From: a virus | IMG/VR virus record: IMGVR_UViG_3300046804_002329 | Span: 1-22,624 of that record | Direction: 5' to 3' (one strand) | DNA: 22,624 nucleotides | Shown here: piece after piece, positions 201 through 22,260 of the stretch | Layout: every line of letters begins with the position of its first letter | How positions within the stretch are numbered: the stretch's first letter is position 1 | Program-made: the position numbers and the translations under genes | The notes under the pieces: generated by a model | The model's database searches: none | What the model was told of the DNA's origin: nothing | What the model saw: the letters and a program-made list of their open reading frames with translations, nothing else

Positions 201-740
201 ATGTTACCAGTTATAATCCAAGATTTTATTGATAAAGAAGATGCTTTAATATTAATGCAAGAAATGGATAATCCATCTGAAATAAACCCATATCCAGAGT
301 ATTATAAAAAAAGATTTGGCGGAACTGGATTTCCATATAACAAAAAAACTTTAGATATTCAAAAAAAATATGCTTTAAAATCTAATAAAATACATCAATC
401 TTTATTTAAAAATCAAGAAAAAGAAATAAAAACGTTTAAATGTTTTGGAAGTGTTTGGCATCTTGGTGGTTATGGACTTCCACATATGGATGATCAAGAT
501 CCAGAACCATTTATTGAATACAGTACAGTTATTTATCTTAATGAAGATTTTACTGGTGGTAAAATATTTTTTCCTAAAAAACAATTTGAATATCAGCCAA
601 AAAAATATTCAGCATTATTTTTTCCAAGCGAAAAAGAAGAATGGATACATGGAATTACTCCAGTAGAATCTGGTAGTAGATATGTTTTATTATATATGCA
701 TACTACAAACATTAATGAGGTGGATCCAGATCTTGACTAA
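201..740 (+). CDS. 2OG-Fe(II) oxygenase, prolyl 4-hydroxylase-like
   Basis: A 179-residue protein with the P4H-type double-stranded beta-helix signature. The iron-binding HxD is H95-M-D97, the distal His is H150 (WIHG), and the 2-oxoglutarate-binding Arg is R160 (SGSRYVLL). Between them is the strand region YSTVIYLNEDFTGG. Enzymes of this family hydroxylate prolyl, lysyl or other side chains using Fe(II), O2 and 2-oxoglutarate; the substrate here cannot be read from sequence. The ATG follows GGAGG at a good distance. It starts a plus-strand run and overlaps the next gene by a few bases at its end. Closest relative within the window is the gene at 15790, which shares the IEYSxVIYLN and KPKKYSA-type strands. 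Catalytic residues look complete, so an active enzyme is likely. Confidence 0.88.
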   Translation: MLPVIIQDFIDKEDALILMQEMDNPSEINPYPEYYKKRFGGTGFPYNKKTLDIQKKYALKSNKIHQSLFKNQEKEIKTFKCFGSVWHLGGYGLPHMDDQDPEPFIEYSTVIYLNEDFTGGKIFFPKKQFEYQPKKYSALFFPSEKEEWIHGITPVESGSRYVLLYMHTTNINEVDPDLD

Positions 741-1551
741 TAAACTTGTTAACTTTGTAAATACAAAATTTGCTTTGTATGAAAATCATCCAGATCCAAA
801 AAATATAGTGTGGAAATTTTGTACTAAGGATCATTATTTAAAAATGGAAGAAATATTTACAAAAAATGCTATATTTTTTGAGCCATTTATAATAGAAAAT
901 TTTTATGATAAAGAAGATTTTGAAGAATTAAAATCAATAGTTTATTCTAAAAGTTTAAAAGAAATTGCCTATACAAAACAAATGAATAAATGGGAAGACA
1001 CAATAGTTATTCCAGATTATTTAATAAATAAAGCAATACAAAAAACTAAAGAGTTTTTACAAACAGATGATATTGAGTTAGGATATTATTTATATGCACA
1101 TCATCAAATTTCAAAATCTGGAAAACCATTTTTACAGGTACATTTAGACTGGTCTCCAGGAACATATATGATTGATTTACACATCGGCGGAAATAGAGAT
1201 TGGTCTTTTATTGCACATGATAAAGAATTTATTACAAAACCAAATGATGCAATAATTGTGCAGCCAGAATTGGACTTTCATTATCGACAGCCTTGGAACT
1301 CAGATGATCCAAACGAATATTATCAAGTTTTCTTTTTTCATCTTGCAAGAAAAGACCATTGGTTAAAAAAATTTGGAACAGAATATATGAATTCTGAAGA
1401 GTTTTTATCATTTCAAAATCAAAGATTGTTTATATGGGAAGACTTATATAAACAACATATAAACAATACACCAGGACTGTCTAAAATGGTATTTGGAAAT
1501 GATAGTAATATAACAGAAAATGATAAAAGAATATTTGGATTGGATGTATAA
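733..1551 (+). CDS. Putative 2OG-Fe(II) oxygenase, HxD/H[YW]RxP type
   Basis: A 272-residue protein if started at the TTG at 733, which is preceded by GAGGTGG (717-723) at 9 nt and overlaps the upstream stop codon. An in-frame ATG at 715 lacks a ribosome binding site. The C-terminal half carries H137-L-D139 (VHLDW), a strand with NDAIIV, then H183-Y-R185 followed by QPW, and an FFFHLAR strand. This order fits a jelly-roll Fe(II)/2-oxoglutarate oxygenase, and the gene at 13488 on the minus strand has the same signature (HxD, NDALIF, HWRTP, FFH). It lacks the GGE strand of the P4H-like paralogues, so it belongs to a different branch. Residues 1-110 show no recognisable domain. The oxygenase call rests on motif order only. 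Confidence 0.6.
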   Translation: MTNKLVNFVNTKFALYENHPDPKNIVWKFCTKDHYLKMEEIFTKNAIFFEPFIIENFYDKEDFEELKSIVYSKSLKEIAYTKQMNKWEDTIVIPDYLINKAIQKTKEFLQTDDIELGYYLYAHHQISKSGKPFLQVHLDWSPGTYMIDLHIGGNRDWSFIAHDKEFITKPNDAIIVQPELDFHYRQPWNSDDPNEYYQVFFFHLARKDHWLKKFGTEYMNSEEFLSFQNQRLFIWEDLYKQHINNTPGLSKMVFGNDSNITENDKRIFGLDV

Positions 1552-1552
1552 C

Positions 1553-1717
1553 ATGATAAAAGATAGCAAAGAATATAAAGATTTAGAACGTGAATTAATT
1601 TTTATGTATAATAAATATTCTGAGGTATGTCTTGCATATAAAAAACTTGCTGCTAAAATAGATAAAGCAACAGAATTATCGTCTCATGATCAATCGAATA
1701 TGTTATATGATAGATAA
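1553..1717 (+). CDS. Small coiled hypothetical protein
   Basis: The 54-residue product is highly charged and helical (KEYKDLERELIFMYNKY), with a heptad-like pattern that suggests a short coiled coil. The ATG at 1553 comes two bases after the upstream stop; a longer frame from 1520 would run back into the oxygenase gene and is less likely. It overlaps the start of the SGNH gene by about 11 nt, so it is probably translated in the same transcript. No family is recognised. It may be a small adaptor of the neighbouring enzymes, but that is a guess from position only. Confidence 0.5.
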   Translation: MIKDSKEYKDLERELIFMYNKYSEVCLAYKKLAAKIDKATELSSHDQSNMLYDR

Positions 1718-2558
1718 TACACAAAATATAAATTTAGACGATATTGTTACTTTTTTAAATGGTAATGAGTCTATAAATTTAATTAATAATAATATTGAGG
1801 GTGCGATTGCACCAAATGCACAATTTTTTATTCATCCTAAAGAATTTCCAATGTTTGAAATGAATAAAATTAATTTTGACATTAATGATAAAAGTGTTTA
1901 TTATAAATATAATGATAAAGGATTTAGATGTGATAATTTTGATTCTTATGAAAGTAAAAATAAAATTATTTTTGCTGGATGCTCTGAAGGAGAAGGAATA
2001 GGATCAAATATAGAAGAGTCATGGCCATATATTATTTTTAATTATTTAAAAAATAAAAATATAGTTGATAATTTTTATAATTTATCAGTAGATAATTTTG
2101 GTTTTCAAAAAATAATATCAAACTGTTTGGCATATATAGATAATTTTGACTCACCAGATTATATTATTATTTTGTTTCCAGAAATAACTAGACAAATTTC
2201 TTGGAATAAAGATACAAATAGTTTTTATGTTGAATGGAATGATGTTAATCAAATACATATTGAAAAAAATTTAATATCGTTTTTAAATTCTTTTATTAAT
2301 TTTATTACAACTATGCATATTTTTGAAAAATATTGTATTGAAAAAAATATTAAATTGTATTGGAGCATTTGGAGTGAAAAAGAAAATTACATTTTTAAAA
2401 AGTTAGAATGTTTTAAAAATTTTGTTCCATTTGATTATTCTATTTTAAATAACAGCAACTTGTCTAAAAATAAAAGAGATGGTCATCATGGTGCATATTA
2501 TCATAATCTTTGGGCTAATAATATTATTCAACATATAGTTAAAAATCTTGGTGTATAA
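1707..2558 (+). CDS. SGNH/GDSL-like hydrolase family protein
   Basis: A 283-residue protein. G91-C92-S93 follows a hydrophobic strand (KIIFAGCSEG) and matches SGNH block I (GDS, here GCS) with S93 as candidate nucleophile. N126-L-S begins the block II region (YNLSVDNFG), and DYIIILFPEI is a central strand. Near the C-terminus is D258-G-H-H-G followed by YHxxWAN, which provides the candidate catalytic Asp/His. SGNH enzymes remove or transfer acyl groups on glycans, lipids or peptides. A paralogue at 20697-21608 has GCS at the same residue numbers, which supports the start at 1707; an upstream ATG at 1686 is possible. It sits directly before a 2OG oxygenase, a pairing repeated at the other locus. 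No signal peptide is seen. Confidence 0.65.
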   Translation: MIDNTQNINLDDIVTFLNGNESINLINNNIEGAIAPNAQFFIHPKEFPMFEMNKINFDINDKSVYYKYNDKGFRCDNFDSYESKNKIIFAGCSEGEGIGSNIEESWPYIIFNYLKNKNIVDNFYNLSVDNFGFQKIISNCLAYIDNFDSPDYIIILFPEITRQISWNKDTNSFYVEWNDVNQIHIEKNLISFLNSFINFITTMHIFEKYCIEKNIKLYWSIWSEKENYIFKKLECFKNFVPFDYSILNNSNLSKNKRDGHHGAYYHNLWANNIIQHIVKNLGV

Positions 2559-2559
2559 T
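2552..2559 (+). promoter_or_regulatory. -10 box for a leaderless oxygenase transcript
   Basis: TG-TATAAT overlaps the TAA stop of the SGNH gene and ends 6 nt before the ATG at 2566. No Shine-Dalgarno lies between. With initiation 6-7 nt after the box the mRNA would begin at or beside the A of the ATG. The surrounding AAATCTTGGTGTATAATT resembles the 23-bp repeat at 166 and 3238 in degenerate form. Confidence 0.45.
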
Positions 2560-2565
2560 TTAAAT

Positions 2566-3246
2566 ATGAGTGATTTTAATTGGGATGAAAATAAAATAGT
2601 TGTTGTTGAAAATTTTATAGATCAACAAAATGCAGAAAAAATTATTAATTATTGTGAAAACATAATTAATAATATTGATGAGGATAAATCAAATATATGT
2701 CGCTTTACTTTTCCATTTGCTGGAATACAGGATACAAATATTCAAGACATTATTTGTGAATTAGAAAAAAAAGTTTATATTTTTATCATATCAGAATATT
2801 TTTTAGATAATAATATAAAAATTCTTGAAAGAGGATGGCAAAGAGACCTAGAAATAGTAAGGTGGAATTGTTCTTATTTAAATGACCATAGGGATGGATG
2901 GACTGAAAAAAAGGTTGGTCATCCATCTTTGCATAATATAGAATATGATATAAGTGCATTAATATATTTAACAGATGAATATGAAGGTGGAGAATTATTT
3001 TTTGGAGATTTTGATATTACTGTTAAGCCTAAAAAGTTTAGTTTTGTGTTATTTCCATCACACTATTTGCATAGAGTTGAAGAGGTATTTGTAAAAAATA
3101 GTATAGCAAGATATACACTGCCATTTTTTTATACTTTTCGTGTATCAGAATATTCAAAAAACTTTATGTTAAAAGATGATCCAATGTTATATGAATATAA
3201 AGAACAAAGTCTAAACAAATTTTTAATATCGATGTTAAAATCTTAA
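2566..3246 (+). CDS. 2OG-Fe(II) oxygenase, prolyl 4-hydroxylase-like
   Basis: A 226-residue protein with a complete P4H-like signature: H108-R-D110 (NDHRDGW), the strand YDISALIYLTDEYEGGELFF, a distal H169 (YLHRVEE) and the 2-oxoglutarate Arg R182 (IARYTLPFF). It begins with the FxWxENKIVVVENFID opening common to this group. The ATG at 2566 lies 6 nt after a -10 box and has no ribosome binding site, so I prefer it to the ATG at 2548, which lies inside the upstream gene. A C-terminal extension of about 40 residues (MLKDDPMLYEYKEQ) has no recognised role. It follows the SGNH gene. Substrate unknown; residues needed for catalysis are present. Confidence 0.85.
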   Translation: MSDFNWDENKIVVVENFIDQQNAEKIINYCENIINNIDEDKSNICRFTFPFAGIQDTNIQDIICELEKKVYIFIISEYFLDNNIKILERGWQRDLEIVRWNCSYLNDHRDGWTEKKVGHPSLHNIEYDISALIYLTDEYEGGELFFGDFDITVKPKKFSFVLFPSHYLHRVEEVFVKNSIARYTLPFFYTFRVSEYSKNFMLKDDPMLYEYKEQSLNKFLISMLKS

Positions 3247-3260
3247 TATGCTATAATTAA
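3238..3260 (+). repeat. Direct repeat copy 2 (stop codon plus extended -10)
   Basis: Matches 166-188 at 22 of 23 positions. It contains the stop codon of the oxygenase gene and the TATAAT used by the endolysin gene. The two copies flank a block of about 3 kb. Confidence 0.7.
3249..3257 (+). promoter_or_regulatory. Extended -10 promoter of the endolysin gene
   Basis: TG-C-TATAAT lies 39 nt upstream of the endolysin ATG, with AAGGAG just before the start. No -35 hexamer is evident. This gives the endolysin an ordinary leader, unlike the leaderless genes in this window. Confidence 0.55.
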
Positions 3261-3296
3261 TATTGATAAACTATATGTTTATAAAAAAGGAGAAAC

Positions 3297-3878
3297 ATGG
3301 CAGAAAAAGGTACAGTAGAGGCTCTTATTGAAGTTGCCAAAAAAGAAGTTGGCACAATTGAGGGTCCTAAAGATAATGAAACAAAGTATGGTAAATTTAC
3401 AAAGGCAAACTTCCAACCTTGGTGTGGATCGTTTGTTATGTGGTGTGCTAATCAGGCTGGTGTAAAGGTTCCTAATACCGTTTATACGCCTGCTGGAGAG
3501 GCTGCATTCAAAAAGATGAACCGTTGGGCAGATGCTCGCAACGATGATCCAACTCCTGGAGATATTATTTATTTTGATTTTCCAGAAGATGGCGTAAACA
3601 GAACGTCACATGTTGGTATTTGTATTAAGAACAATGGTGATGGAACAATTCAGTGCATTGAGGGTAATACTGCAGGATCATCTAAGGGTGATCAACGTAA
3701 TGGTGGTATGGTTTGTGAAAAGACTCGTGCATATGTTAAGGATAATAAAAAGAAACTAATCAACGGTATTGTTGGTTGGGGTCGTCCTAATTATAAGGGA
3801 GAAGAAGGTCAGGCTCTTGCTGTTAAGATTACAAAGCCAGCACCAGCAAAGAAGTCTGCAAAGAAGGCTGCAAAGTAG
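3297..3878 (+). CDS. CHAP-domain endolysin (cell-wall amidase/endopeptidase)
   Basis: A 193-residue lysis enzyme. The CHAP papain-like fold is marked by the catalytic Cys in PWC43GSFVMWC, the catalytic His in SH105VGI and the acidic/Asn partner around E122-G-N124. The stretch PTPGDIIYF before the His is typical. These enzymes cut peptidoglycan amide bonds late in infection. The last 18 residues are Lys/Ala/Pro-rich (PAPAKKSAKKAAK), resembling histone H1 tails; a similar tail ends the holin-like protein at 8147. The ATG follows AAGGAG. Codon use is visibly richer in G and C than in the flanking oxygenase genes. No signal peptide, so export would need the holin. Confidence 0.85.
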   Translation: MAEKGTVEALIEVAKKEVGTIEGPKDNETKYGKFTKANFQPWCGSFVMWCANQAGVKVPNTVYTPAGEAAFKKMNRWADARNDDPTPGDIIYFDFPEDGVNRTSHVGICIKNNGDGTIQCIEGNTAGSSKGDQRNGGMVCEKTRAYVKDNKKKLINGIVGWGRPNYKGEEGQALAVKITKPAPAKKSAKKAAK

Positions 3879-3879
3879 T

Positions 3880-4077: not shown

Positions 4078-4079
4078 TA

Positions 4080-4265: not shown

Positions 4266-4268
4266 AAT

Positions 4269-7516: not shown

Positions 7517-8101
7517 ATGATAAAAGATTTATTTATTATTGATGATAATTTTTTAACGCAACAAGAAATAAAAGATATAGAGTTCAACTTATTTAATAAT
7601 ACAACATATTCTTTTTTAGAAGTTGGAGGAGCAAAAACTGATGGAATTCATGGAATTAGTGGTGAAAGTTTTTGTGATGCACCACTTTTTATGAATTTTT
7701 CGATGTCTGAAAATGATAATAATAGTTCTTTTGCTATAGCAAATTTTATATTAAATAAGTTTGTAGAAAAACATAACATAAAAATTAAAGAAATAACTAG
7801 ATCTAGAGCAAATATTAGTTTTACATCAAATGACAGAAGACACACTCCGCCACATATCGATGATAGACAAGATCATTATGTTTTTTTATATTATGTTAAT
7901 GACAGTGATGGAAATACAAACATATATAATGAAAAGTTTGATGGAGTTACAAAAAGAACTGAAAAAGACTTAACTCTTTTTAAATCTATTGAACCAGTTG
8001 CTGGAAGAGGAATGTTGTTTAGTGGACACGTTTTCCATACATGGCAACCACCAGTAAATAATAAAATTAGATGTATTGTCAACATGAATGTTATCCTATA
8101 A
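7517..8101 (+). CDS. 2OG-Fe(II) oxygenase, prolyl 4-hydroxylase-like
   Basis: A 194-residue protein starting at 7517 behind AGGAGG; an ATG at 7484 would put the promoter-like box and the ribosome binding site inside the gene. H113-I-D115 (PPHIDDR) is the iron-binding HxD, H174 (GHVFHTWQPP) the distal His and R185 (NKIRCIVNM) the 2-oxoglutarate Arg. RGMLFSGHVFH is the typical strand before the distal His. It lacks the DGGE strand of the closest paralogues. It stands alone between the small-gene run and the holin. Substrate unknown. Confidence 0.82.
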   Translation: MIKDLFIIDDNFLTQQEIKDIEFNLFNNTTYSFLEVGGAKTDGIHGISGESFCDAPLFMNFSMSENDNNSSFAIANFILNKFVEKHNIKIKEITRSRANISFTSNDRRHTPPHIDDRQDHYVFLYYVNDSDGNTNIYNEKFDGVTKRTEKDLTLFKSIEPVAGRGMLFSGHVFHTWQPPVNNKIRCIVNMNVIL

Positions 8102-8482: not shown

Positions 8483-9178
8483 ATGAATTTTGTTTATGTT
8501 TGTAAAGATGGAGACAATGAAGAATTAAGATATTCTATTAGATCAATAGTTGCAAATTGTAATGTAGAAAATATTTTTGTAGTTGGTAGCAAACCTTCTT
8601 GGTATGCTGGAGAATATATAGAAGTAAAACAAAATTTATCTAAATATAAGAATGTTCATAATAATTTTAAAACAATTTCTAATAGTTATGAAATACCAGA
8701 AAATTTTATATTAATGAATGATGATTTTTTTGTTATGAAACAAACTGAAAATATAACAACTTATTTTGATAGAACATTATTAAACAAAATAGAAAGATAT
8801 GAAAGTATTCTTGGAAGAAATTCTTACATAAATAAAATGAAAACAACACATCAAAAACTTTTATCTATGCAAATTGAATCACCATTAAACTATGAAATAC
8901 ATGTTCCAATGTTAATCAATAAAAATAATTTTAAAAAGATTGTGGGTATGAATCATAATCTTTTATACAGATCTATGTATGGCAATGTGTACAATGTTTT
9001 AGGAAACGAAATGGAAGATGTCAAAGTTTATGATTCAGTAAATATGCAGTCTTTGTCATATCAGTATACATCAAACAAGTACAATTTTCTATCAACTGAG
9101 CCTGGATCATTTATAAAATTAAAAAATGATGGTGTTTTTGATACGCTAAATTTAAAAACTAAATACGAGAAGAATTAA
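8483..9178 (+). CDS. Stealth-like sugar-phosphate transferase
   Basis: A 231-residue protein. The N-terminus (FVYVCKDGDN, NEELRYSIRSI at 12-22, VVGSKPSW) and FILMNDDFFVM (75-85) match the conserved regions of Stealth-family proteins, which are hexose-1-phosphate transferases of capsular polysaccharide synthesis. The NDD pair is the likely metal/donor-binding acidic cluster. It is shorter than bacterial Stealth proteins, so it is a minimal version. GGAGTG precedes the ATG. It ends tail-to-tail with the GT4 gene of the minus strand, sharing 20 bp, and belongs functionally with that glycan operon. Confidence 0.65.
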   Translation: MNFVYVCKDGDNEELRYSIRSIVANCNVENIFVVGSKPSWYAGEYIEVKQNLSKYKNVHNNFKTISNSYEIPENFILMNDDFFVMKQTENITTYFDRTLLNKIERYESILGRNSYINKMKTTHQKLLSMQIESPLNYEIHVPMLINKNNFKKIVGMNHNLLYRSMYGNVYNVLGNEMEDVKVYDSVNMQSLSYQYTSNKYNFLSTEPGSFIKLKNDGVFDTLNLKTKYEKN

Positions 9179-10205
9179 ATAGTTCGTAATATTTATTCTT
9201 TAACTTTTCTGGAGCAAAATTATTTATTCCAACTTCTAACGCTGTTCTTTTTTGTTCTGATTTATCTTTTAACATAACATATTCATCTATCATTTCAGCC
9301 AATTGTCTTGGGTTAGCACCATATACGTCTATCAAAGTTTTTGCTTTAAATTGATCAACGACAGAAGCATCCACTAACCAATCAAATGGTAAGACCTTAT
9401 TGTTTGGAGATATGTTTGTCATAAAAACTGGCAAACCACTTAGCAAAGCCTCATTCATTGGTAAACAAAGACCTGCATATCTTCTTGGAAGTACCATAAG
9501 GTCAAATCCAGAGTACATGTCTTCTCTATTTTTTTGATCATTATAATCTATAGTTAGTCTACTATCATTACTACTTATTTCTAATCTAGTCTGTGTTCTT
9601 ACAACAAGTTCATAGTTTGCTTTTGAATACCTCAGCATTTCTACTACTGTATCTGTTCCATTACGATCCATAGCAGCACGTTTACCACCAATGTGAAGAA
9701 TTCTATTGTGTGTCTTAGATGTATTTTCTTTTAATGCATTGCTAAATATACCTGGAGTAGTTGGTGGCGGTATATGAACAACCTTTGCCTTTCTACCAAA
9801 TTTATCTATAATAGTCTGTAGTTCCCAAGCACTTGGAGATATAAGAACATCTGGCAAAGGCATTTTCTTTTTTGAAAGATTTCCAAACAATTCGTAGTTA
9901 TACTGTAAAAAAGTTTTTACATTTTTTACTTTGGCTATTCCAATAAATTCTTCATTGTTATAAAATGTTTCACAACTTAAAACAACGTCAATATTGTCTA
10001 AAAATTTATCTATATCTCTAGCAGTTGGGTACCCAGATATGTTTGTTACATTATAGTGAGCATACCATTCTGGATGTTGTATGTTATTGTTGTGAGCAGA
10101 AAAATCAATAAGCATAACCTTGTCTGGTTTAAGCATATCGGTCAACTCTTTAGTTTGATAGCCTAGTCCAGTGTTGTCAGATCGTGCTATTATTCCTATT
10201 CTCAC
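9159..10205 (-). CDS. Glycosyltransferase, GT4-like (group 1)
   Basis: A 348-residue protein. I place the start at a GTG whose GTGA overlaps the upstream stop; the longer frame from 10220 lies in the previous gene. It has an N-terminal Rossmann domain (IGIIARSDNTGLGYQT), a hinge region with LISPS and VVHIPPP, and a C-terminal domain opening at ILHIGGK, with the acceptor/donor motif ending in NEALLSGLPV (about 251-260). The Glu of this motif is the usual nucleotide-sugar-binding residue of GT-B enzymes. It is the last gene of the glycan operon. The donor and acceptor sugars cannot be told from sequence. Confidence 0.82.
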   Translation of the reverse strand: MRIGIIARSDNTGLGYQTKELTDMLKPDKVMLIDFSAHNNNIQHPEWYAHYNVTNISGYPTARDIDKFLDNIDVVLSCETFYNNEEFIGIAKVKNVKTFLQYNYELFGNLSKKKMPLPDVLISPSAWELQTIIDKFGRKAKVVHIPPPTTPGIFSNALKENTSKTHNRILHIGGKRAAMDRNGTDTVVEMLRYSKANYELVVRTQTRLEISSNDSRLTIDYNDQKNREDMYSGFDLMVLPRRYAGLCLPMNEALLSGLPVFMTNISPNNKVLPFDWLVDASVVDQFKAKTLIDVYGANPRQLAEMIDEYVMLKDKSEQKRTALEVGINNFAPEKLKNKYYELFNSSRI

Positions 10206-10963
10206 TCTGTATATCCCCAAACTCTATCATCATTAGTAAATTTTCTTGTTCCTTTTCTTCCATCTAAATGAAGAGATCTTTTAATACTTCCTTCTGGATG
10301 ATATATCCATAGTTTATGTTTGTTCCAACCCTCTTCATTGAATGCATTATATGGAGTAATATCATCTTGTATTTTTCCATGTAATGTATCTTCAATAAAA
10401 ACATTGTTTGACAAAAATGGCAAGACTTCTTCTCTGTAATATTTAACCAAAGACAAATGTGGTCTTTGACTCCATTGACTGGTTTTCATAAAACCATTTT
10501 CAAGACCAAACATTAAATGTCTATGTGGGGTTGGTATTTGTGCTTCAAAATGAAATCTAATTGTTTTTGCTTTTTCATACTCTATCATATCAAGACATTT
10601 TTGCCAATCAATATCGGAGTCTATACAAAGAGGCGCATCTCCTTCAACATAAAGAAGTAATGTCGTATTTATAAGATCAATTGTTTTTTTCATCATTGTG
10701 CTTTGATGGCTGTGTTTATCAAAAACTATTGGTAATACATTTTCCCATTCATGTAAACACTTCCAAAGAACTCTATTTTTAAATTCATCATAATCATTTT
10801 TTCTATTTAATCTTTCTTCTCTTAAACCATCTATTTGTAAAATTATTTCATTATCTTTAAAATGGTGCCTGACAGATTTTATTGTTTCATCAAGAATGCT
10901 TGTATCTGGGTGGTCTGGTAAAACTGAAGTAACAACTACAATAGTAACATCTCTGCTATGCAT
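10202..10963 (-). CDS. Putative GT-A type glycosyltransferase
   Basis: A 253-residue protein with the opening of a GT2-like domain: IVVVTSVLPDHPDTSILDETIKSV is followed by IILQIDG (40-46), and YVEGDAPL (105-112) sits where the DxD-type donor-binding motif is expected, here as EGD. The region after it (RHLMFGLENGFM, ending in DRVWGYTE) does not match a family I know. It overlaps the upstream gene by 8 nt and the downstream one by 4 nt, so it is translationally coupled. It most likely adds a sugar in the same glycan pathway. Confidence 0.65.
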   Translation of the reverse strand: MHSRDVTIVVVTSVLPDHPDTSILDETIKSVRHHFKDNEIILQIDGLREERLNRKNDYDEFKNRVLWKCLHEWENVLPIVFDKHSHQSTMMKKTIDLINTTLLLYVEGDAPLCIDSDIDWQKCLDMIEYEKAKTIRFHFEAQIPTPHRHLMFGLENGFMKTSQWSQRPHLSLVKYYREEVLPFLSNNVFIEDTLHGKIQDDITPYNAFNEEGWNKHKLWIYHPEGSIKRSLHLDGRKGTRKFTNDDRVWGYTE

Positions 10964-11810
10964 AAATATCTCTCATTATCTTAATTGCAAAATCTCTTTT
11001 AAACTTAATCCACCAACAAACTATTTGATGCATATTGTTTGGATAGTTATCTTTTATTTCGTCAACAATATCTTGTAACTTTTTCCAATTGTCTGTTTTT
11101 GGTATTGGGAAGTCATTGCCAAATACAATATTATAAAATTTATCTTTGTCACCCTTAGAATTAACTGTATCAGCAATTGGAACACACATCATTTCTATTG
11201 CCTCAAAAAATCTAAAAGAATCTATGCTAACAACTCCAGCAGGGGCTGGAGCAATCTTTGCACTAAATAGATCATTGTAGTATTCAGATGGGCTAGAACC
11301 TTTTGCAAAACCATCTGTTGGTTTGTATATAGAATTTTGTATAGTTGGCATTACAGAAGCAAGTTGCTGTCTTCTTTGATGAGTTACTTGTCCAGCAAAG
11401 CAAACATCTTTAGTTTTTTGTGCATACTTTGGTAGATTATCTTTAAGATGTTGTGGCACACCTATTGGAAGTTTGTTATATCTTTCATGTTTTAGTGTAG
11501 GATATTGAATCCAAATAGAAATATTATCATGTTTTATTTTGTTAACATCAAATAAATTTTCTTCATCACCAGTAATAAAAAGAACAACTCTGCCTATTTT
11601 ATTTAATTCTTCACTAATTTCTTTTTCTTTTCCCGCATTTCCTTTTCCAGGTATAACAACAAAAGCCCTTTCACATTCTGGAATAACATCTACCACTATT
11701 TCTTCAGTATTGTTTCTATCAAAAGTTTCTTTTAATAAACCGTAATCCCATTTATCTTTAGCACAGTCTTTGGGATCAACTGAAAATATGTATGCTTTAG
11801 GCTGGCTCAT
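10956..11810 (-). CDS. Exostosin-like (GT47-type) glycosyltransferase
   Basis: A 284-residue protein starting at the ATG at 11810 (MSQPKAYIFS), with GAGG 12 nt upstream; an ATG at 11828 lies further inside the FkbM gene. KDVCFAGQVTHQRR (about 134-147) and SIDSFRFFEAIEMMCVPIAD (195-214) match the exostosin-type C-terminal domain, where a Ser/Arg/Glu-rich helix followed by G/C-VP binds the nucleotide sugar. The N-terminal half shows IGRVVLFITGDEEN. It sits between the FkbM and GT-A genes with overlaps on both sides. The call is based on this one motif region, so family assignment is moderate. Confidence 0.6.
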   Translation of the reverse strand: MSQPKAYIFSVDPKDCAKDKWDYGLLKETFDRNNTEEIVVDVIPECERAFVVIPGKGNAGKEKEISEELNKIGRVVLFITGDEENLFDVNKIKHDNISIWIQYPTLKHERYNKLPIGVPQHLKDNLPKYAQKTKDVCFAGQVTHQRRQQLASVMPTIQNSIYKPTDGFAKGSSPSEYYNDLFSAKIAPAPAGVVSIDSFRFFEAIEMMCVPIADTVNSKGDKDKFYNIVFGNDFPIPKTDNWKKLQDIVDEIKDNYPNNMHQIVCWWIKFKRDFAIKIMRDIYA

Positions 11811-12510
11811 AATATAAATGAACCTCATGTTGATAGTCTAGTAATGTTTCTTTATATCCTATTCCTTTTATAAATTGTCTTAAATCATAAAGATATTCTT
11901 TCCAATACATCATCATAAATTCAGGATGGCCAGACAACCAAATCTTTGGTCTAAACTCTCTCATTGTTTGTTCTGCTCCACCAAGAACACGCCATTCGCT
12001 TCCCTCTACATCAAGAGATATTGCTGTTGGCGGTTTAAGTTTATGTTCATAAACTAATGTATCAATCTTTGTTTGTCCATACTTATCGGCCTCATATTGC
12101 AATTCTTTAAATCCATGTGCAGCATCTATTGGAGAGTTTGCTTCTGGAGGAAATTCATTATAATAAATCCTTGCAAGTTTATTATCCTTATCTGATGCGA
12201 ATCCAGGTATTGATGCTAGTGGCATTGAAAGATTATTTGCACTCCACAACAAAGGAAAATGAGACCACACTTTTGGATTAGGTTCAAATAAAACTACTTC
12301 AGCACCCCAAATTTGGCATAATGCTGGCATTTCTCCTTCTTCAGCACCAACGTAGTAAACAACATCACCATCTTTAATGTTCTCATGCATTGATTTTAAT
12401 CTTGGCTTTTCCCATCCATGAGGCTGATACCAATCTGGTCTATCAGCACGATGTTTTGGCAAGGTAATTTCAAACTCACCGTTAATAATTGCCTTTACCA
12501 TCTCTGTCAT
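11797..12510 (-). CDS. FkbM-family SAM-dependent methyltransferase
   Basis: A 237-residue protein from the ATG at 12510, preceded by AAAGGAG and overlapping the upstream stop (ATGA). YVGAEEG (53-59) is the SAM-binding loop, FEPNP (75-79) the acidic motif after strand 2, and DVEGSEWRVLGGAE (167-180) the strand 4-helix motif diagnostic for FkbM enzymes. They O-methylate sugars and related hydroxyls. Here a sugar in a surface or virion glycan is the likely substrate, given the four flanking glycosyltransferase-like genes. Confidence 0.85.
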   Translation of the reverse strand: MTEMVKAIINGEFEITLPKHRADRPDWYQPHGWEKPRLKSMHENIKDGDVVYYVGAEEGEMPALCQIWGAEVVLFEPNPKVWSHFPLLWSANNLSMPLASIPGFASDKDNKLARIYYNEFPPEANSPIDAAHGFKELQYEADKYGQTKIDTLVYEHKLKPPTAISLDVEGSEWRVLGGAEQTMREFRPKIWLSGHPEFMMMYWKEYLYDLRQFIKGIGYKETLLDYQHEVHLYYEPA

Positions 12511-13463
12511 ATGCTTAACTCCTTTAATATAGTAGCCCATCTGTGAACATATGTGTGTTCTTTTTTAGTTCTATTATGTCCAAACATTCTGATTGCTTCT
12601 CTTTCTTCAGGATGTTCTAAATAATAATCTATTTTATTTGTTAGGTCTCTAAGATCTCCATGTTTGTAGAACACAATTTCTTTTTTATCATAAAAATATA
12701 CATCAAGTCCTTTGATATCTGGGTAGATTGTAAATCCACCACGACCAGTACTTTCAAAAAGTCTATCGCTAGTATAGTATGGATAACTAAAATTAATATT
12801 TAGACTATCTCCAACTGCTATCTTACTTTTTGCGTATATACGATTAAGATCATCTCCACGAACAGTTCCAGTATCGCCATCTCCACCAACATGTAAAAAT
12901 CTTTTACCATATTTTGATCTTAAATAATCTATTAATTCTGATCGGTATGGATATTCTGGATGATACCTTTTACTGCCAACAAAAATTACATCATAGTCAA
13001 AATTGTTATAATCATAATCTGGGTGAACATAACACTCTTTGTCATAAACTCCAGCAGGCAAGAAGTGTCCTTTTACATTTGTATTTTCATTGAACCAGTC
13101 TGCCATAAGTTTATCTGTAGCAAAGAAGTGTCCAATGGTTTGATAAAAATTGTCTTCTCTAAGATCTTTTTCTCTTTCTAGTCCTAGCCATAGGTCTAGA
13201 TGGTATGTCATAGTTGGAATCTTAGAAATTCTTAGTTGTTCCAGTACCATGCCCATACCAATTCTTCCAGGAGTTTTCCATCCATGAGTATGTACCCAAA
13301 CAAACAAATCAGCATTCAAAGCATTTTCTAAAATAACGGAGTCTTTAATAAATCTTTCTTGCAATCTACAAACGGTATGTCCAAGAGATTCTAGTGAATT
13401 AGCATGATGATTTTCACTGCTATAAGGAACTTCAAAGTTACCAAGAAAAACTATGTGTGCCAT
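12507..13463 (-). CDS. CgeB-like glycosyltransferase (Glyco_trans_1_2)
   Basis: A 318-residue protein and first gene of the minus-strand operon. It begins with a short Rossmann strand (HIVFLGNFEVPYSS), carries VIFVGSKRYHPEYP (159-172) at the start of its second domain, and has YYTSDRLFESTGRGGF (229-244) and EHPEEREAI, typical of the C-terminal domain of CgeB/spore-maturation-like GT-B enzymes. AAAGGTAA precedes the ATG, and a -10 box lies at 13487-13492. The 3' end overlaps the FkbM start by 4 nt. Confidence 0.78.
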   Translation of the reverse strand: MAHIVFLGNFEVPYSSENHHANSLESLGHTVCRLQERFIKDSVILENALNADLFVWVHTHGWKTPGRIGMGMVLEQLRISKIPTMTYHLDLWLGLEREKDLREDNFYQTIGHFFATDKLMADWFNENTNVKGHFLPAGVYDKECYVHPDYDYNNFDYDVIFVGSKRYHPEYPYRSELIDYLRSKYGKRFLHVGGDGDTGTVRGDDLNRIYAKSKIAVGDSLNINFSYPYYTSDRLFESTGRGGFTIYPDIKGLDVYFYDKKEIVFYKHGDLRDLTNKIDYYLEHPEEREAIRMFGHNRTKKEHTYVHRWATILKELSI

Positions 13464-13486: not shown

Positions 13487-13494
13487 ATTATACA
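13487..13494 (-). promoter_or_regulatory. -10 box of the glycan operon
   Basis: On the minus strand TG-TATAAT, with the hexamer at 13492-13487, lies 23 nt before the ATG at 13463. It contains the TAA stop codon of the upstream oxygenase gene. No -35 hexamer is evident. Confidence 0.45.
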
Positions 13495-14111
13495 TCATTT
13501 TGATACAGTTCGCTTGTTTTTTTATAATAATCAAATATATAATCACCCTTTACCGATGCTGGTGTTTTTGCGTTGTTTTTTCTTTCATAATCTACAAAAT
13601 GAAAAAATACCATATCTACAAAATCATTCTCTTTAAATATTATTGGAGTTCTCCAATGAGAATAATCAGAAGATTTGAATATTAATGCATCATTGTTTGA
13701 TAAAACATATTCTTTATTTTCAACAATAATTGGCCATTTTATATTTGAATTTAATTGATAATCTATTGTAAAGTCTGTGTTTGAATTATCTTTATGCGGT
13801 ATTAATTTTGGCATTCCGTATTCTAATGAATATCTACAAAACATAAAAGTATTCGGTACTGTAAAACGATTTATTGTTTTTGCGTATAAAAAAACTTTAT
13901 TATATATGTCTTCTGGCATTTTATGTATATTAAAATGCATAACAATTCTTCCAATATTTTTTTGTAATATTATTATTTCTGTATTTACTACAGTATTTTG
14001 ATCTAAAGTTATAATTTTCCTGTTAGATAGTTCTTCATCTATATATTTTGATAACATTTTTATTTCATTATTATTTAAAAAATTAATCTTTATTTTGGTA
14101 TCTATATCCAT
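13488..14111 (-). CDS. Putative 2OG-Fe(II) oxygenase, HxD/H[YW]RxP type
   Basis: A 207-residue protein from the ATG at 14111, 5 nt after AGGTG; a GTG at 14117 is the alternative. H106-K-D108 (IPHKDNSN), NDALIF (140-145), H152-W-R154 followed by TP, and VFFHFVDY give the same motif order as the gene at 733, suggesting a shared jelly-roll oxygenase subfamily that hydroxylates an unknown target. The GGE strand of P4H-like enzymes is absent. It lies directly upstream of the glycan operon on the same strand, and its stop is embedded in that operon's -10 box. N-terminal about 80 residues are unassigned. Confidence 0.6.
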   Translation of the reverse strand: MDIDTKIKINFLNNNEIKMLSKYIDEELSNRKIITLDQNTVVNTEIIILQKNIGRIVMHFNIHKMPEDIYNKVFLYAKTINRFTVPNTFMFCRYSLEYGMPKLIPHKDNSNTDFTIDYQLNSNIKWPIIVENKEYVLSNNDALIFKSSDYSHWRTPIIFKENDFVDMVFFHFVDYERKNNAKTPASVKGDYIFDYYKKTSELYQNDV

Positions 14112-14123
14112 GTTCACCTAAAA

Positions 14124-15626: not shown

Positions 15627-15800
15627 TTGAAAAAAGATTATAAAAACAAAGAATGGCTTTACCAAAGATATGTTGTTGATGAAGTTGAACCAGTAGATAT
15701 TGCAAAAGAATTTCAGGTAGATCGTAAAGTAATAATTGCTTGGTTAGACGAATTTAGGATTTATCGTGACTATAAAAGATTTAAAAAACATGGAAAATAA
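15627..15800 (+). CDS. Small helix-turn-helix protein (TTG start)
   Basis: A 57-residue product. No ATG exists at the right place, but a TTG at 15627, two bases after the previous stop and 4-5 nt after AGAGGAA, opens the frame. WLYQRYVVDEVEPVDIAKEFQVDRKVI then WLDEFRI is a standard helix-turn-helix (DIAKEFQVDRKVIIAWL), similar to those found in phage HNH or recombinase partners. It probably binds DNA and may act as a small regulator. It overlaps the oxygenase gene at 15790 by 11 nt. Confidence 0.6.
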   Translation: MKKDYKNKEWLYQRYVVDEVEPVDIAKEFQVDRKVIIAWLDEFRIYRDYKRFKKHGK

Positions 15801-16323
15801 TAAAATTTTTGTTATAGATAATTATATATCTGAAGAAGATACTAAAACATTTGTTAATTTTTTTGATAATAACAATTCATATTCTGAATATAGCACTAAT
15901 TATGGAGCACAAGACTTTATTAATGATAAAAAATTATTTTTACTTTTAAAACAATATGCCAATAAAATAAGTTTTTCTCATAAATCATTAAATGATATAG
16001 ATAAAAATTTATATATTTATGCAGCATTAGGATTTAAATGGAAAGATGGTTGGTCGCAACATCCACATATAGATGCAATTGGTCCAGGAGAATCTATTGA
16101 ATATAGTGCAGTAATTTATTTAAATGATGAATATGATGGTGGAGAAATTGAATTTCCAAATAAAAATTTTATATATAAACCTAAAAAATATTCTGCAATA
16201 TTATTTCCAGGCAAAGGTGATGAATATACACATCAAGTAAACAAAATAATTGGAAGCGATAGATATACTTTATTATTTTTATATACATATGATATAAATA
16301 AAGCAAGTAAAAAATTTTTATAA
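15790..16323 (+). CDS. 2OG-Fe(II) oxygenase, prolyl 4-hydroxylase-like
   Basis: A 177-residue protein with H93-I-D95 (HPHIDAIG), the strand YSAVIYLNDEYDGGEIEF, KPKKYSAILFPG, distal H148 (YTHQVNK) and the 2-oxoglutarate Arg R158 (GSDRYTLLF). It is the closest match to the gene at 201 in length and in the order of strands, so the two look like duplicates. The ATG at 15790 gives the family's short MENNKIFVIDN start; an upstream GTG at 15766 lies inside the HTH gene. The gene ends just before the tRNA cluster, which lies on the opposite strand, with no recognisable terminator between. Confidence 0.87.
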   Translation: MENNKIFVIDNYISEEDTKTFVNFFDNNNSYSEYSTNYGAQDFINDKKLFLLLKQYANKISFSHKSLNDIDKNLYIYAALGFKWKDGWSQHPHIDAIGPGESIEYSAVIYLNDEYDGGEIEFPNKNFIYKPKKYSAILFPGKGDEYTHQVNKIIGSDRYTLLFLYTYDINKASKKFL

Positions 16324-17791: not shown

Positions 17792-17809
17792 ATATATCCT
17801 TTCTTATTA

Positions 17810-17889: not shown

Positions 17890-17894
17890 ATTAG

Positions 17895-17968: not shown

Positions 17969-17975
17969 TTAACTA

Positions 17976-18227: not shown

Positions 18228-18229
18228 TA

Positions 18230-18604: not shown

Positions 18605-18791
18605 TGTTTTCCTTTCCCGATTCCCTTTCGAACATATTTTTTGGATTATCGTCTAAAAATTTTTCTACAATCTTATATCCATTATCGTCTAATTCTTCAA
18701 ATATTTTAGTTGTTAAATATGAAGGGTCATCTGGCAGGGTATATCCATAGGAGTCCCATAGCATATTTTTTATAACTGAGTATGCTGTCAT
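18591..18791 (-). CDS. Hypothetical protein, first gene of the speD unit
   Basis: A 66-residue acidic protein, overlapping speD by 14 nt and preceded by a strong divergent promoter. It reads as two or three helices (SVIKNMLWDSYGY, KIFEELDDNGYKIVEKFLDD) and a polar tail. No family recognised. The predicted -10 ends 7 nt before the ATG, so the transcript would be leaderless or have a leader of only 1-2 nt. Confidence 0.6.
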   Translation of the reverse strand: MTAYSVIKNMLWDSYGYTLPDDPSYLTTKIFEELDDNGYKIVEKFLDDNPKNMFERESGKENNGTT

Positions 18792-18797
18792 ACAACT

Positions 18798-18826
18798 ATT
18801 GTATCAAATGCTGTTATAATTGTCAA
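18798..18826 (-). promoter_or_regulatory. Sigma70-type promoter of the speD unit
   Basis: On the minus strand TTGACA (18826-18821), a 17-nt spacer and TACAAT (18803-18798), with TG at the extended -10 position. The -10 ends 6 nt before the ATG at 18791, the leaderless geometry. It overlaps the divergent extended -10 of the nuclease gene. Confidence 0.65.
18812..18820 (+). promoter_or_regulatory. Extended -10, leaderless start of the nuclease gene
   Basis: TG-T-TATAAT (hexamer 18815-18820) ends 7 nt before the ATG at 18828, with no ribosome binding site. It lies within the spacer of the divergent speD promoter, so the two promoters would compete for RNA polymerase. Confidence 0.55.
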
Positions 18827-18827
18827 C

Positions 18828-19214
18828 ATGGCTATGTACACATATTATACTAAAATAGATAAGGTCATTGACGGAGATACTTGTGATGTTTTTATAGACC
18901 TTGGATTCAGCGTGTGGCATAAAGAAAGAATTCGTCTTGCTGGTATTGATACAGCAGAAAAAAATACACCACTTGGAAAGGCTCTCAAAGAATTTTTAAT
19001 TAAAAATTTAGAAGGTAAATTAGTAAAACTTGAAGTAAGCAAACCAGATAAGTATGGAAGGTATCTTGGTAAAATTTATTTAAACTCAGAAGAAAGTGTA
19101 AATGATCAACTTATAAGGAACGGTCTGGCCAAGCCGTATGGGGGAGACTCAAAAGTTGGCCTTTGGACTGAGCAAGAACTATCTAAAACTTCAGTAGATA
19201 TTGTTTTAAAATAG
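18828..19214 (+). CDS. Thermonuclease-like (SNase) endonuclease
   Basis: A 128-residue protein with the SNase OB fold: VIDGDTCDVFIDLG (14-27), R36-L-A-G-I-D-T-A-E44 and KYGRYLGKIYL (75-85). By alignment with staphylococcal nuclease, R36, E44 and R78 occupy the catalytic Arg/Glu/Arg places, and D17 with D41 could bind calcium. Such enzymes cut DNA and RNA; there is no signal peptide, so it would act inside the cell. The ATG at 18828 fits the leaderless promoter. It is convergent with the carbamoyltransferase gene. Confidence 0.85.
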   Translation: MAMYTYYTKIDKVIDGDTCDVFIDLGFSVWHKERIRLAGIDTAEKNTPLGKALKEFLIKNLEGKLVKLEVSKPDKYGRYLGKIYLNSEESVNDQLIRNGLAKPYGGDSKVGLWTEQELSKTSVDIVLK

Positions 19215-19294
19215 TTAATATATAAAATATTTTCTTTTTTTTATTTTATTTTTTTTTCTATATACTTTAATAATAAAATTTTTTATTTTTTTAA
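19215..19294. other. AT-only intergenic region between convergent genes
   Basis: These 80 bases are almost entirely A and T with long T runs on the plus strand. AAAATATTTT near 19225, followed by T runs, could form a weak A-T hairpin terminator for the nuclease gene. I see no GC-paired stem and no other feature. Confidence 0.3.
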
Positions 19295-20716
19295 TCATTT
19301 TATTATTATATCATTATATTCTTTTTCCCATTTAATAATATCATTATTATCATTTAATAGTGGTTGTCCTTTAATATTTAAACTTGTATTTAATAAAACT
19401 GGCACACCAGTCTCTAAATAAAATTTATTTAACACTCTCCATAATCCAGGATGTTGATCTCTATTTACTGTTTGAACCCTAGATGTTCCATCAACATGAA
19501 CTACTGCAGGTATTGATTTTGGTTTTAAACATTTTACTGTGTATTGCATATATGGACTTGTAAAAGATATATCAAACCATTTACTAGCATGTTCTTCCAT
19601 TACTACTGGAGCAAAAGGTCTAAACAATTCTCTTTTTTTAATTTGATTTACTTTATCTTTTATAGATTCTTCTCTTGGATCTGCTAAAATACTTCTATTG
19701 CCAAGCGCTCTTGGTCCATATTCTGCTCTTCCTGTTGCTACTGCAACAATTTTATTTTTCTTTAATTTATCTATAATTTCTATTACTGGATATTTAGATC
19801 CAAGATCATGTCCAAGATATGGACTATTCCAATTTAAATGTTTTCCATATAACGCTGCTGCTGCGCCTAAAGAACTTCCAGCATCTCCAGGGTTTGGCAT
19901 GATCCAAATATTATTAAACAACTCCCACAATTTTGTATTAGCAGAACAATTTAAAGCACAACCACCCATAAAAACTAAATTTTTTTTATTAGTTATTTTT
20001 TTAGCATAAATCATAAATTCAAATAATCTATTTTGATAAACTTTTTGAACTGCTGCTGCAATATCAAATCTGTCCTGTTGCAAAATAATAGGTTGCCAAT
20101 CATCTATACCTTTATGAAAATTATATTTTTGTCTATCAAATACTGGAAAATATTCATTTACTTCTTTAAAATATTTATTATGATCTCCATATGCAGCCAT
20201 ACCCATTAAAATATATTCTTCTTCATTTGGTTTTAATCCAACAAGTTTTGTAAATGCTGAATAAAATAATCCAAAACTTAATGGATAATTTAATGAATAA
20301 ACTTGATTTATTTTATTGCCTTCTGCAGTCCAAATTGTAGAAGTATTCCATTCGCCAATAGCGTCTAATACTACCACTACTGCATCATCAAAACTGCTTG
20401 TAAAATATCCTGCTGCTGCATGAGAATAATGATGTTTAAACGTATATCTAGGTATGTTATGAATATCAAATTTTGGCTTCCAATCAGACAAACCACCAAA
20501 TAATAATCTAGATTTTTTTAATAGTGGCTTTTCATAGTATGCAATCGCATCTGGCTTTCCATATTGTAATGCATCATCAATAAGATCTTGATTTACATAC
20601 CAATCATTTTTAATTTTGCTATATCTTTCTGCATGTCCAGCAAAAAGAATTTGATCATTTTCAATTAAAGAAACAGATGCGTCATGAGATGTTTCGTTAA
20701 TACCAAGAATTATCAT
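19295..20716 (-). CDS. NodU/CmcH-family carbamoyltransferase
   Basis: A 473-residue protein from the ATG at 20716 (MIILGINETSHDAS); the longer frame from 20731 lies inside the SGNH gene. The N-terminal Kae1/YrdC-like domain has HHYSHAAAGY (95-104) for metal binding, D118 in VVLDAIGEW, and GGCALNCSAN (251-260). The C-terminal domain has GRAEYGPRALGNRS (329-342), RPFAPVV (366-372) and NTSLNIKG (443-450). These are the signatures of O-carbamoyltransferases that make carbamoyl-AMP from carbamoyl phosphate and ATP and transfer it to a hydroxyl, usually of a sugar. It is slightly shorter than most family members. It is the last gene of the oxygenase-SGNH operon and overlaps the SGNH gene by 20 nt. 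Confidence 0.88.
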   Translation of the reverse strand: MIILGINETSHDASVSLIENDQILFAGHAERYSKIKNDWYVNQDLIDDALQYGKPDAIAYYEKPLLKKSRLLFGGLSDWKPKFDIHNIPRYTFKHHYSHAAAGYFTSSFDDAVVVVLDAIGEWNTSTIWTAEGNKINQVYSLNYPLSFGLFYSAFTKLVGLKPNEEEYILMGMAAYGDHNKYFKEVNEYFPVFDRQKYNFHKGIDDWQPIILQQDRFDIAAAVQKVYQNRLFEFMIYAKKITNKKNLVFMGGCALNCSANTKLWELFNNIWIMPNPGDAGSSLGAAAALYGKHLNWNSPYLGHDLGSKYPVIEIIDKLKKNKIVAVATGRAEYGPRALGNRSILADPREESIKDKVNQIKKRELFRPFAPVVMEEHASKWFDISFTSPYMQYTVKCLKPKSIPAVVHVDGTSRVQTVNRDQHPGLWRVLNKFYLETGVPVLLNTSLNIKGQPLLNDNNDIIKWEKEYNDIIIK

Positions 20717-21608
20717 TATTATTAAATCCAATCATTTTGTCATAAAATACATTAGCCCATGTTAGATGATATTTATAGCCATGATGATCATTGTCCTCTG
20801 CAAAATCCCAAAACTCTTCGTTTGTTTTGCTTAATTCAATATTATTTTTTATTTCATTAATATAATTATTATCAATAACTGATTTAATTTTTAAAAAATT
20901 ATAAAATTCATTTGAAGAATTAGACCAAGATAGAACAAAAAGTTTTATATTGTTAACATTACAAAATTTTTGAAAATTAACCAAACTTAGCAAATTATAA
21001 ATTACTACACTTTCAAAATTTTTGTTTTTATAAAAAGTTTTTAATAAAGTATTTATGTTATCAATATATAATGGTTCATGTATTGTTCTAATATGTTTTT
21101 CTCGTTCAAGAGTAAAAAATCTTTCAATTGGTGGAAGCACTAAAAATACATAATCTGGAGTTTTATATTTTTCAATAAACGTATAGCAAGTTGTAATGAT
21201 TCTTTCTGTATCAAGACTAGGTCTTCCCAAATTATATAGTTTTATATTTTTTTTATTTGTTTTTGCAATTTTATCTTTTAAAATATTAGGCCAAATTTTA
21301 TTTTCAGGTAAGGCATATCCAAATGTATTTGAACATCCAGAAGTTAAAATATTAATATTTTCATCATTAAAAACTTCAAAACTTTCTGACCTAAATCCAA
21401 AATTATTTAAACAATAAGAAATGTTGCTTTCATTACTAGTAAAAATTTTTAAGTTATTGAGTAAAACTTCTGTTGGAATAAAATTAATTTTCTTTTTATC
21501 TTTATTAATCATAGTAAAACTTTGTTGGTCTGTTAATAAAAATTCATTCCAATTTGAAACTTGGTTAAAAAATTCAGTAAATGATTCTTTTTGCTTATTC
21601 AGATCCAT
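20697..21608 (-). CDS. SGNH/GDSL-like hydrolase family protein
   Basis: A 303-residue paralogue of the gene at 1707. G91-C92-S93 in ILTSGCSNTFGYA is block I with S93 as candidate nucleophile, N126-L-G in YNLGRPS is block II, and PDYVFLVLPPIERFF the central strand. The C-terminal motif is NDHHG (273-277) followed by YHxxWAN. Here an Asn replaces the Asp found at 258 in the other copy, though D272 and D274 are close by. It starts 14 nt inside the upstream oxygenase gene and leads into the carbamoyltransferase, so the three are coupled. Likely role: removal or transfer of an acyl group on the same glycan or protein target. Confidence 0.65.
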   Translation of the reverse strand: MDLNKQKESFTEFFNQVSNWNEFLLTDQQSFTMINKDKKKINFIPTEVLLNNLKIFTSNESNISYCLNNFGFRSESFEVFNDENINILTSGCSNTFGYALPENKIWPNILKDKIAKTNKKNIKLYNLGRPSLDTERIITTCYTFIEKYKTPDYVFLVLPPIERFFTLEREKHIRTIHEPLYIDNINTLLKTFYKNKNFESVVIYNLLSLVNFQKFCNVNNIKLFVLSWSNSSNEFYNFLKIKSVIDNNYINEIKNNIELSKTNEEFWDFAEDNDHHGYKYHLTWANVFYDKMIGFNNNDNSWY

Positions 21609-22260
21609 CAGAATGAATCTTTTCTACCATATTATGGTACCAATTTGGCAGAGCATATCGTACTCCGCTTTTCATTTCTGCAATTTCATGTGTAAATATA
21701 AAATTAGATGGGAAAAAAATAATGCTACCAGCATCAGGTTTTAAAGTAACGCCAACAGTTTTAAATGATATTTCTCCACCTTCATAATTATCGTTTAAGT
21801 ATAAAATAACTGAAAGTGTTCTACTACTTATTCCGTGATCAGAATGTTCTGGAAGATATCCAGATTTTTCATACTTTAAAATATTCATTTGGTCTTCTTT
21901 TCCTTTGATGCTTCTTCCAGCAAAAGGATATAATGTTTTTGAGTAGTGTTCAAATGCTATGTCTAATGCTTTAAACAACGGGTCGGACATTTTTGCATAC
22001 TCTTCATAGTAATAATCATTTTCTTTTAAATCTGAAGTTCTTACTATTGATTTAATTTTACAAAAATGTTTATCCTCTCCGTGATTCCACTCCCCCCAAG
22101 GATTTAATCTTGTTTGAAAAGATTTTGGTATTTTATTTTTTCTATCTTCTACTACTTTTTTATCTAAAAATTCTATTTGATTAATTATTTCTTGTGGATT
22201 TTCTATTATATTTTTATAATAAATAAGTCCATCTGCAAGTTTTTCATATTCAATATTCAT
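21595..22260 (-). CDS. 2OG-Fe(II) oxygenase, prolyl 4-hydroxylase-like
   Basis: A 221-residue protein from the ATG at 22260 (MNIEYEKL), which lies 6 nt after an extended -10; a longer frame to 22341 would overlap the divergent sulfotransferase gene. H139-S-D141 (PEHSDHG), TLSVILYLNDNYEGGEISF, GSIIFFPSNF, distal H191 (FTHEIAEM) and R201 (SGVRYALPNWY) complete the catalytic set. It is first in the operon with the SGNH and carbamoyltransferase genes. Hydroxyls that it creates could be acceptors for the carbamoyl group, but this is only inferred from operon order. Confidence 0.87.
   Translation of the reverse strand: MNIEYEKLADGLIYYKNIIENPQEIINQIEFLDKKVVEDRKNKIPKSFQTRLNPWGEWNHGEDKHFCKIKSIVRTSDLKENDYYYEEYAKMSDPLFKALDIAFEHYSKTLYPFAGRSIKGKEDQMNILKYEKSGYLPEHSDHGISSRTLSVILYLNDNYEGGEISFKTVGVTLKPDAGSIIFFPSNFIFTHEIAEMKSGVRYALPNWYHNMVEKIHSDGSE

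Follow-up and report, generated by a model that had tools for sequence, protein, structure and literature searches.

The linear virus record IMGVR_UViG_3300046804_002329 of IMG/VR, analyzed here over its entire length of 22,624 bases and referred to below as the window, carries seven genes that are genuine relatives of the 2-oxoglutarate (2OG)-Fe(II) oxygenases. Three of these genes, designated A, B, and G, belong in related phages to a conserved cassette, X1-X2-X3-X4-A-B-G, in which X4 resembles a glycosyltransferase; the other four are designated C, D, E, and F. The gene set points to, but does not prove, a chemical decoration of the virus's own proteins. As the window is a linear 22.6-kb fragment, which records of this type often are, seven is the number of oxygenase genes in the fragment and not in the genome.

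Identification of the oxygenase genes

Members of the 2OG oxygenase superfamily hold Fe(II) by means of an HxD...H motif and bind 2OG through a basic residue, after which O2-dependent hydroxylation takes place. An initial annotation of the window listed seven open reading frames with these residues in the expected order, and an examination of coordinates and motifs found all seven where they had been placed. Specifically, A (positions 201..740, plus strand), C (2566..3246, plus), F (15790..16323, plus), and G (21595..22266, minus) resemble prolyl 4-hydroxylases (P4H) and match the family PF13640 (2OG-FeII_Oxy_3) at 1e-08, 5.1e-08, 6.2e-08, and 2.6e-14, respectively, with scores of 33.9-54.4 bits against a gathering cutoff of 27. 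G additionally matches the P4H of B. anthracis in a phmmer search against the PDB (0.00017). D (7517..8101, plus) is of the phrog_274 type (3.7e-27) and scores 20.6 bits with PF13640, under the cutoff, while B (733..1551, plus) and E (13488..14117, minus) lack any PF13640 match, their profile matches being limited to phrog_2954 (4.5e-07 and 3.8e-13, respectively) and including no 2OG family in Pfam. B, D, and E are therefore assigned to the 2OG-Fe(II) oxygenase superfamily rather than to PF13640. The start of B is most likely at 733, with an 8 bp overlap with A. Neither PHROG name, "ferrochelatase" for phrog_2954 or "DNA endonuclease V" for phrog_274, was accepted, given that the sequences are oxygenase-like and that the model of E is a jelly roll; both names look like propagated misannotation, and RefSeq cyanophage records carry them as well.

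The predicted active-site residues are H95/D97/H150/R160 in A, H108/D110/H169/R182 in C, H113/D115/H174/R185 in D, H93/D95/H148/R158 in F, and H141/D143/H193/R203 in G. In all five the metal residues are 100% conserved among relatives (two sequences for F, five for C, eight for D), and an arginine of the 2OG-binding type follows the distal histidine at +10 to +13. In B (H137/D139/H183/R185) and E (H108/D110/H154/R156), the arginine instead stands at +2, and for this reason the two constitute a separate type. That B and E are homologous is indicated both by phmmer (1.5e-10 in a search of seven sequences) and by an alignment in which they share the HxD, the distal histidine, the arginine two residues on, which is their only shared conserved arginine, and further invariant residues. 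A profile built from B and E matches the P4H set weakly (E 0.021), with the metal motifs in register. Set apart by arginine position and by phrog_2954, these proteins bear out the earlier division into five P4H-like and two divergent sequences, D being the one of the five that falls just under the PF13640 cutoff. In one contig (L009:4378-4740) a relative of E has PxD in place of HxD and is seemingly a truncated, decayed copy.

Taken alone, the motif is weak: of residue-shuffled versions of the seven proteins, 0.5-8% match its strict and 2-22% its loose form, and it is also present in the glycosyltransferase GT1b (12507-13463). Identification of the oxygenases consequently rests on the profiles together with the structure model of E. 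In that model (predicted local distance difference test, pLDDT, 76.5), the fold of E is a prolyl-hydroxylase-like jelly roll (double-stranded beta-helix), the fold on which the initial annotation had staked its case. It matches prolyl hydroxylases and AlkB-type enzymes (Foldseek 8.5e-07; VIA Z 16.2, root-mean-square deviation 2.8, 159 residues aligned), as well as the "Ferrochelatase" of S-SM1 in BFVD (1.2e-09). Models cover E and B, and that of B is poor (pLDDT 61.6); its matches are nearly all 2OG enzymes, with a best Foldseek E of 0.015 and a best VIA Z of 7.8, both non-significant, such that the predicted assignment of B as an oxygenase is supported mainly by homology to E.

Pairwise identities among the seven proteins range from 12 to 36%, the closest paralogues being A and F (36%), so that there was no recent tandem duplication, in agreement with the initial annotation. 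The accompanying description of the genes as scattered holds for the set as a whole; it does not hold for A and B, which belong to the conserved block described below and from which G is displaced in the window.

A conserved oxygenase cassette

A search of IMG/VR with B recovered 29 contigs, and an alignment-based search recovered the same 29. The relatives of B are 58-66% identical to it. In most of these contigs A, B, and G are neighbors on one strand, usually in the order A-B-G, with G-A-B in L045 and B-A-G in L040; in the window's own clade (L047, L053, L054) A and B are adjacent and G lies ahead of X1. Wherever contigs read in detail reach far enough, X1-X2-X3-X4 directly precede, and the cassette genes are packed so tightly that they overlap or all but touch. 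An Ntn-hydrolase-like gene, often with genes for an SGNH-hydrolase-like protein and a NodU/CmcH-type carbamoyltransferase (CarbT), flanks the cassette on one side, and a CHAP gene flanks it on the other. In the window, the corresponding CHAP endolysin gene lies at 3297..3878 (plus; PF05257 1.7e-11; synteny), and G is found at the opposite end beside a second SGNH-like gene and CarbT, as it is in L034. The window itself begins within X4, most of which lies off the left edge; its 3' end (1..174, plus; C-terminus ...LTYNIDVLSTDRYSAPTNILKSVKS), recognized by position and by eye against an X4 alignment, precedes A as the GT60-like gene does in relatives.

With respect to the remaining cassette genes, X1 has no family match, and X2 corresponds to phrog_7084, which is found also in haloarchaeal tailed viruses. 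The X2 relatives in those viruses (L060:7136-7882, L115; 49 records) are 31-33% identical and lie about 2 kb from putative adhesin and tail-fibre genes. X3 displays an HDH...H...R pattern; an identification as an oxygenase was rejected, as it has the motif only and comparisons with Pfam, PDB, and profiles gave no support. X4 is the only glycosyltransferase-like gene that travels with the cassette. PF11397 (GlcNAc, GT60) is the best Pfam hit for four of the six X4 relatives scanned (E 0.00064-0.029), and one gene has both the best protein score, 19.7 bits against a cutoff of 21, and, when searched in six frames, a score of 21.1 bits.

Neither B nor E has a tblastn match among 50,697 phage records, and short patterns revealed no relative of B in 84,980 genomes. 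In the data searched, B is confined to this phage group. The locus that the cassette occupies beside the endolysin gene may be an exchange site. In one cassette-free relative (L016:4438-5427), another gene occupies that place, the N-terminus of which (CNAKCWFCP) is radical-SAM-like by eye.

Distribution and selection

Profile counts across the longer relatives display an all-or-none pattern: the cassette-positive records G001, G002, G009, G010, and G012 carry 7, 8, 6, 8, and 5 oxygenase-like genes, respectively, X3 being counted as one in each, and the cassette-negative records G003 to G008 (46-98 kb each) carry zero, a comparison among partial contigs that are not independent and for some of which the fetched pieces overlap slightly. 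In a rough marker tree, contigs with the cassette and contigs without it are spread over more than one branch, and a single clade does not simply account for the pattern. An exception is L014, in which F-like genes are present and the A-B pair beside CHAP is absent. Median ratios of nonsynonymous to synonymous substitution (dN/dS), obtained by a simple pairwise count, are 0.07 for G, 0.08 for X3, 0.09 for B, 0.22 for A, and 0.36 for X4, which for B, G, and X3 amounts to strong purifying selection. In a 113-kb relative (L067:3123-5015), a C-like oxygenase gene is found near a gene with an SHPPY motif that is DNA-methyltransferase-like by eye.

Genomic context and host

Downstream of E lies an operon of glycosyltransferase and FkbM genes (9159..13463, minus; Pfam hits). 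This operon was considered as a partner of the oxygenases and rejected, since oxygenase-free relatives have it too. An SGNH-hydrolase-like protein is encoded at 1686..2558 (plus), its class assigned by eye only (GCS...DGHH; no Pfam hit) and its relatives lying near CarbT. The window's CarbT gene lies at 19295..20731 (minus; PF16861 7.1e-56, PF02543 1.1e-37) and is near the cassette in many relatives, and the second SGNH-like protein (SGNH2; 20697..21608, minus) was recognized by eye and by its synteny with CarbT. A gene running off the right end (22287-22622) has a start that is sulfotransferase-like by eye (CPGTQRSGTTWLYKNL), the fragment giving no Pfam match.

Also encoded in the window are WhiB, SpeD, thioredoxin, five tRNAs, a kinase/nucleotidyltransferase-like protein labeled NadR by eye, and a head-maturation-protease-like protein with matches to proteins of Gordonia and Microbacterium phages, among others. 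WhiB has been used as a marker of actinobacterial phages (PMC6802176), and its presence makes an actinobacterial host likely; the window is probably a piece of a large phage of such a host. Genomes were scanned for a close relative of WhiB that might place the host, and none was found, nor was DNA nearly identical to the window found in phage records.

Possible functions of the oxygenase set

The reading tentatively preferred here, and held at somewhat less than even confidence, is that the oxygenases form a multi-enzyme hydroxylation set acting on phage late proteins, the resulting hydroxyls being glycosylated by X4. With Fe(II), 2OG, and O2, the enzymes would add hydroxyl groups to amino-acid side chains of late proteins made by the phage, and at least some of them would act on prolyl residues. 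The targets would most likely be tail or fibre proteins, which are favored because in cyanophages oxygenase genes flank tail-fibre or tail genes. The cassette enzymes would share one protein target, to whose new hydroxyl X4 would add a sugar, while C, D, E, and F would serve different sites or targets; E, whose gene immediately precedes the glycosyltransferase operon, might have a role in glycan assembly. GT60 includes Gnt1, the hydroxyproline N-acetylglucosamine (GlcNAc) transferase of protists, which acts after the prolyl hydroxylase PhyA and whose activity in Toxoplasma is PhyA-dependent (PMC6939170). The weak match of X4 to PF11397, the family of that transferase, fits a pathway in which a phage protein is first hydroxylated and then glycosylated. 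A narrower version, in which the cassette is a phage hydroxyproline or hydroxy-amino-acid glycosylation pathway, with A, G, and B hydroxylating a fibre or proline-rich surface protein, X4 glycosylating it, and B founding a new oxygenase subfamily, is considered unlikely as a whole.

Several observations weigh against the preferred reading. The PF11397 scores of X4 are mostly below the cutoff and several of its relatives have no match; moreover, its candidate metal motif is not conserved, being DG in most relatives and N or S in others, and because the GT-A metal-binding aspartate motif thus varies, X4 is called GT60-like only. P4H-like sequence is no proof of prolyl specificity, and a protein target for the oxygenases is something that we infer. 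In the long relative G001 the cassette lies in the endolysin region and not among the tail genes. Proline-rich (PTPEP)n and collagen-like proteins, considered as candidate substrates, do not track the cassette cleanly: of the five long records with the cassette, four encode a PTPEP-type or similar proline-rich protein, and of the six without it, two encode one of different composition. One candidate surface protein or substrate, encoded upstream of the cassette in L037 (599-2662), has 687 residues, a PA14-like stretch, a long (PTPEP)n region, and hydrophobic ends. A literature search for phage oxygenases with hydroxyproline in virion proteins found none. The initial annotation had envisaged a dedicated hydroxylation program acting on virion proteins that are then glycosylated. 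Its first part, a dedicated and selected set, is well supported by the A/B/G block, by the contrast of 5-8 genes with zero, and by purifying selection; the glycosylation of virion proteins is not, as the window's operon is found also in oxygenase-free sisters and the evidence from X4 is weak.

Bacterial and eukaryotic prolyl hydroxylases act on proteins such as elongation factor Tu (EF-Tu) and ribosomal proteins. The phage enzymes might likewise modify host proteins of this kind during takeover, and among the matches of the E model are indeed a P4H of P. putida whose structure was solved with EF-Tu (4iw3, Z 15.4) and OGFOD1, the hydroxylase of ribosomal uS12 (Z 14.8). A substrate cannot be read from fold similarity, however, and several mutually divergent enzymes per phage exceed what one or two host targets would need, leaving this explanation quite unlikely. 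A stronger competitor, although still a doubtful one, holds that the oxygenases act in glycan or cell-surface decoration. Their substrates would then be not amino-acid side chains but sugars, or sugars linked to lipids, either on the host surface or in a glycan of the phage, and they would work alongside the O-carbamoyl, FkbM-type methyl, sulfo, and SGNH acyl enzymes. Genes for CarbT, SGNH, FkbM, and glycosyltransferases do share the window with the oxygenases, CarbT and SGNH genes accompany the cassette in many relatives, and the gene for E immediately precedes the glycosyltransferase operon in the window and in L012, L033, and L034. Yet the operon persists in relatives that have no oxygenase, and among solved structures the closest relatives of G and E are for the most part hydroxylases of peptides or proteins, though fold does not show substrate.

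Two further explanations carry little weight. That the enzymes mainly draw down 2OG or retune host metabolism has been proposed for cyanophage oxygenases by way of NtcA and nitrogen stress (PMC3037559), but is highly improbable here. The regulator NtcA belongs to cyanobacteria, whereas the host here is apparently an actinobacterium, and the idea would leave unexplained why several divergent active-site families, each conserved separately, sit in a fixed block with other genes. Least probable of all is DNA hypermodification, in which a TET-like oxygenase would make a hydroxymethyl base that a carbamoyltransferase then caps. A 5-hydroxymethylcytosine carbamoyltransferase from a phage contig is known, but in the same study the carbamoyltransferases beside group-1 glycosyltransferases are those on unmodified contigs (PMC8670742). 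G has a weak Tet_JBP score (22.2 bits against a cutoff of 34.9) but matches PF13640 far better (54.4 bits). DNA hypermodification is further disfavored in that neither PF00303 (thymidylate synthase/dCMP hydroxymethylase) nor PF00145 (C5-cytosine methylase) was found in 13 records, mostly fragments, two of them over 100 kb.

Comparison with known systems

The density of oxygenase genes is not in itself new, since cyanophage S-SCSM1 and other cyanophages carry dense sets. As in the window, S-SCSM1 (MK867354.2; PMC9602691) encodes many mutually divergent 2OG oxygenases of the PF13640 family, with 24 oxygenase genes of which seven lie within 9.1 kb (210680-219702) around tail-fibre genes. Earlier work reported up to five annotated oxygenases per cyanophage genome (PMC3037559), and the six cyanophages examined here have 7-13 PF13640 matches per 173-252 kb and no PF11397 match. 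Unlike the window, S-SCSM1 is a T4-like marine cyanophage with tail-fibre genes inside its cluster, and unlike the cassette phages it has no PF11397 gene, no relative of B that could be found, and no X1-X4-A-B-G block. The block described here shows that multi-oxygenase sets are not confined to cyanophages. The conserved block with B, its confinement to this phage group in the data searched, and the GT60-like gene that travels with it were not found in the literature searched, which leaves most subscription journals outside and is no proof of priority.

At the level of individual proteins, E and B fall in phrog_2954, which, going by name and size, would be the cyanophage family T4-GC615 ("hypothetical with ferrochelatase domain"); B is longer than the cyanophage members, and the absence of tblastn matches in phage records sets both B and E apart. 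The jelly roll modeled for E and the metal triad are shared with prolyl 4-hydroxylases, as reflected in Z values of 14.5 to PBCV-1 vCPH (5c5t) and 15.4-15.5 to P. putida PPHD (4j25/4iw3), and G resembles the B. anthracis enzyme (3itq) by sequence. In contrast to these viral and bacterial enzymes, B and E have the arginine at distal histidine +2 and no Pfam 2OG family, and the activity of all seven proteins is predicted.

The cassette also recalls the protist Skp1 hydroxyproline-GlcNAc pathway (PhyA and the GT60 enzyme Gnt1; PMC6939170), in that a prolyl-hydroxylase-like gene adjoins a GT60-like gene (X4-A). It differs in that X4 is weakly GT60-like with a metal motif that is not conserved, in having several oxygenases rather than one, and in that no Skp1-like substrate is known. 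A fixed oxygenase block that travels with a glycosyltransferase-like gene provides a concrete, testable grouping of a small number of enzymes, for which a common pathway or substrate is probable, and, if the hydroxylation-glycosylation reading is true, the cassette would represent a bacterial-virus counterpart of the protist Skp1 pathway.

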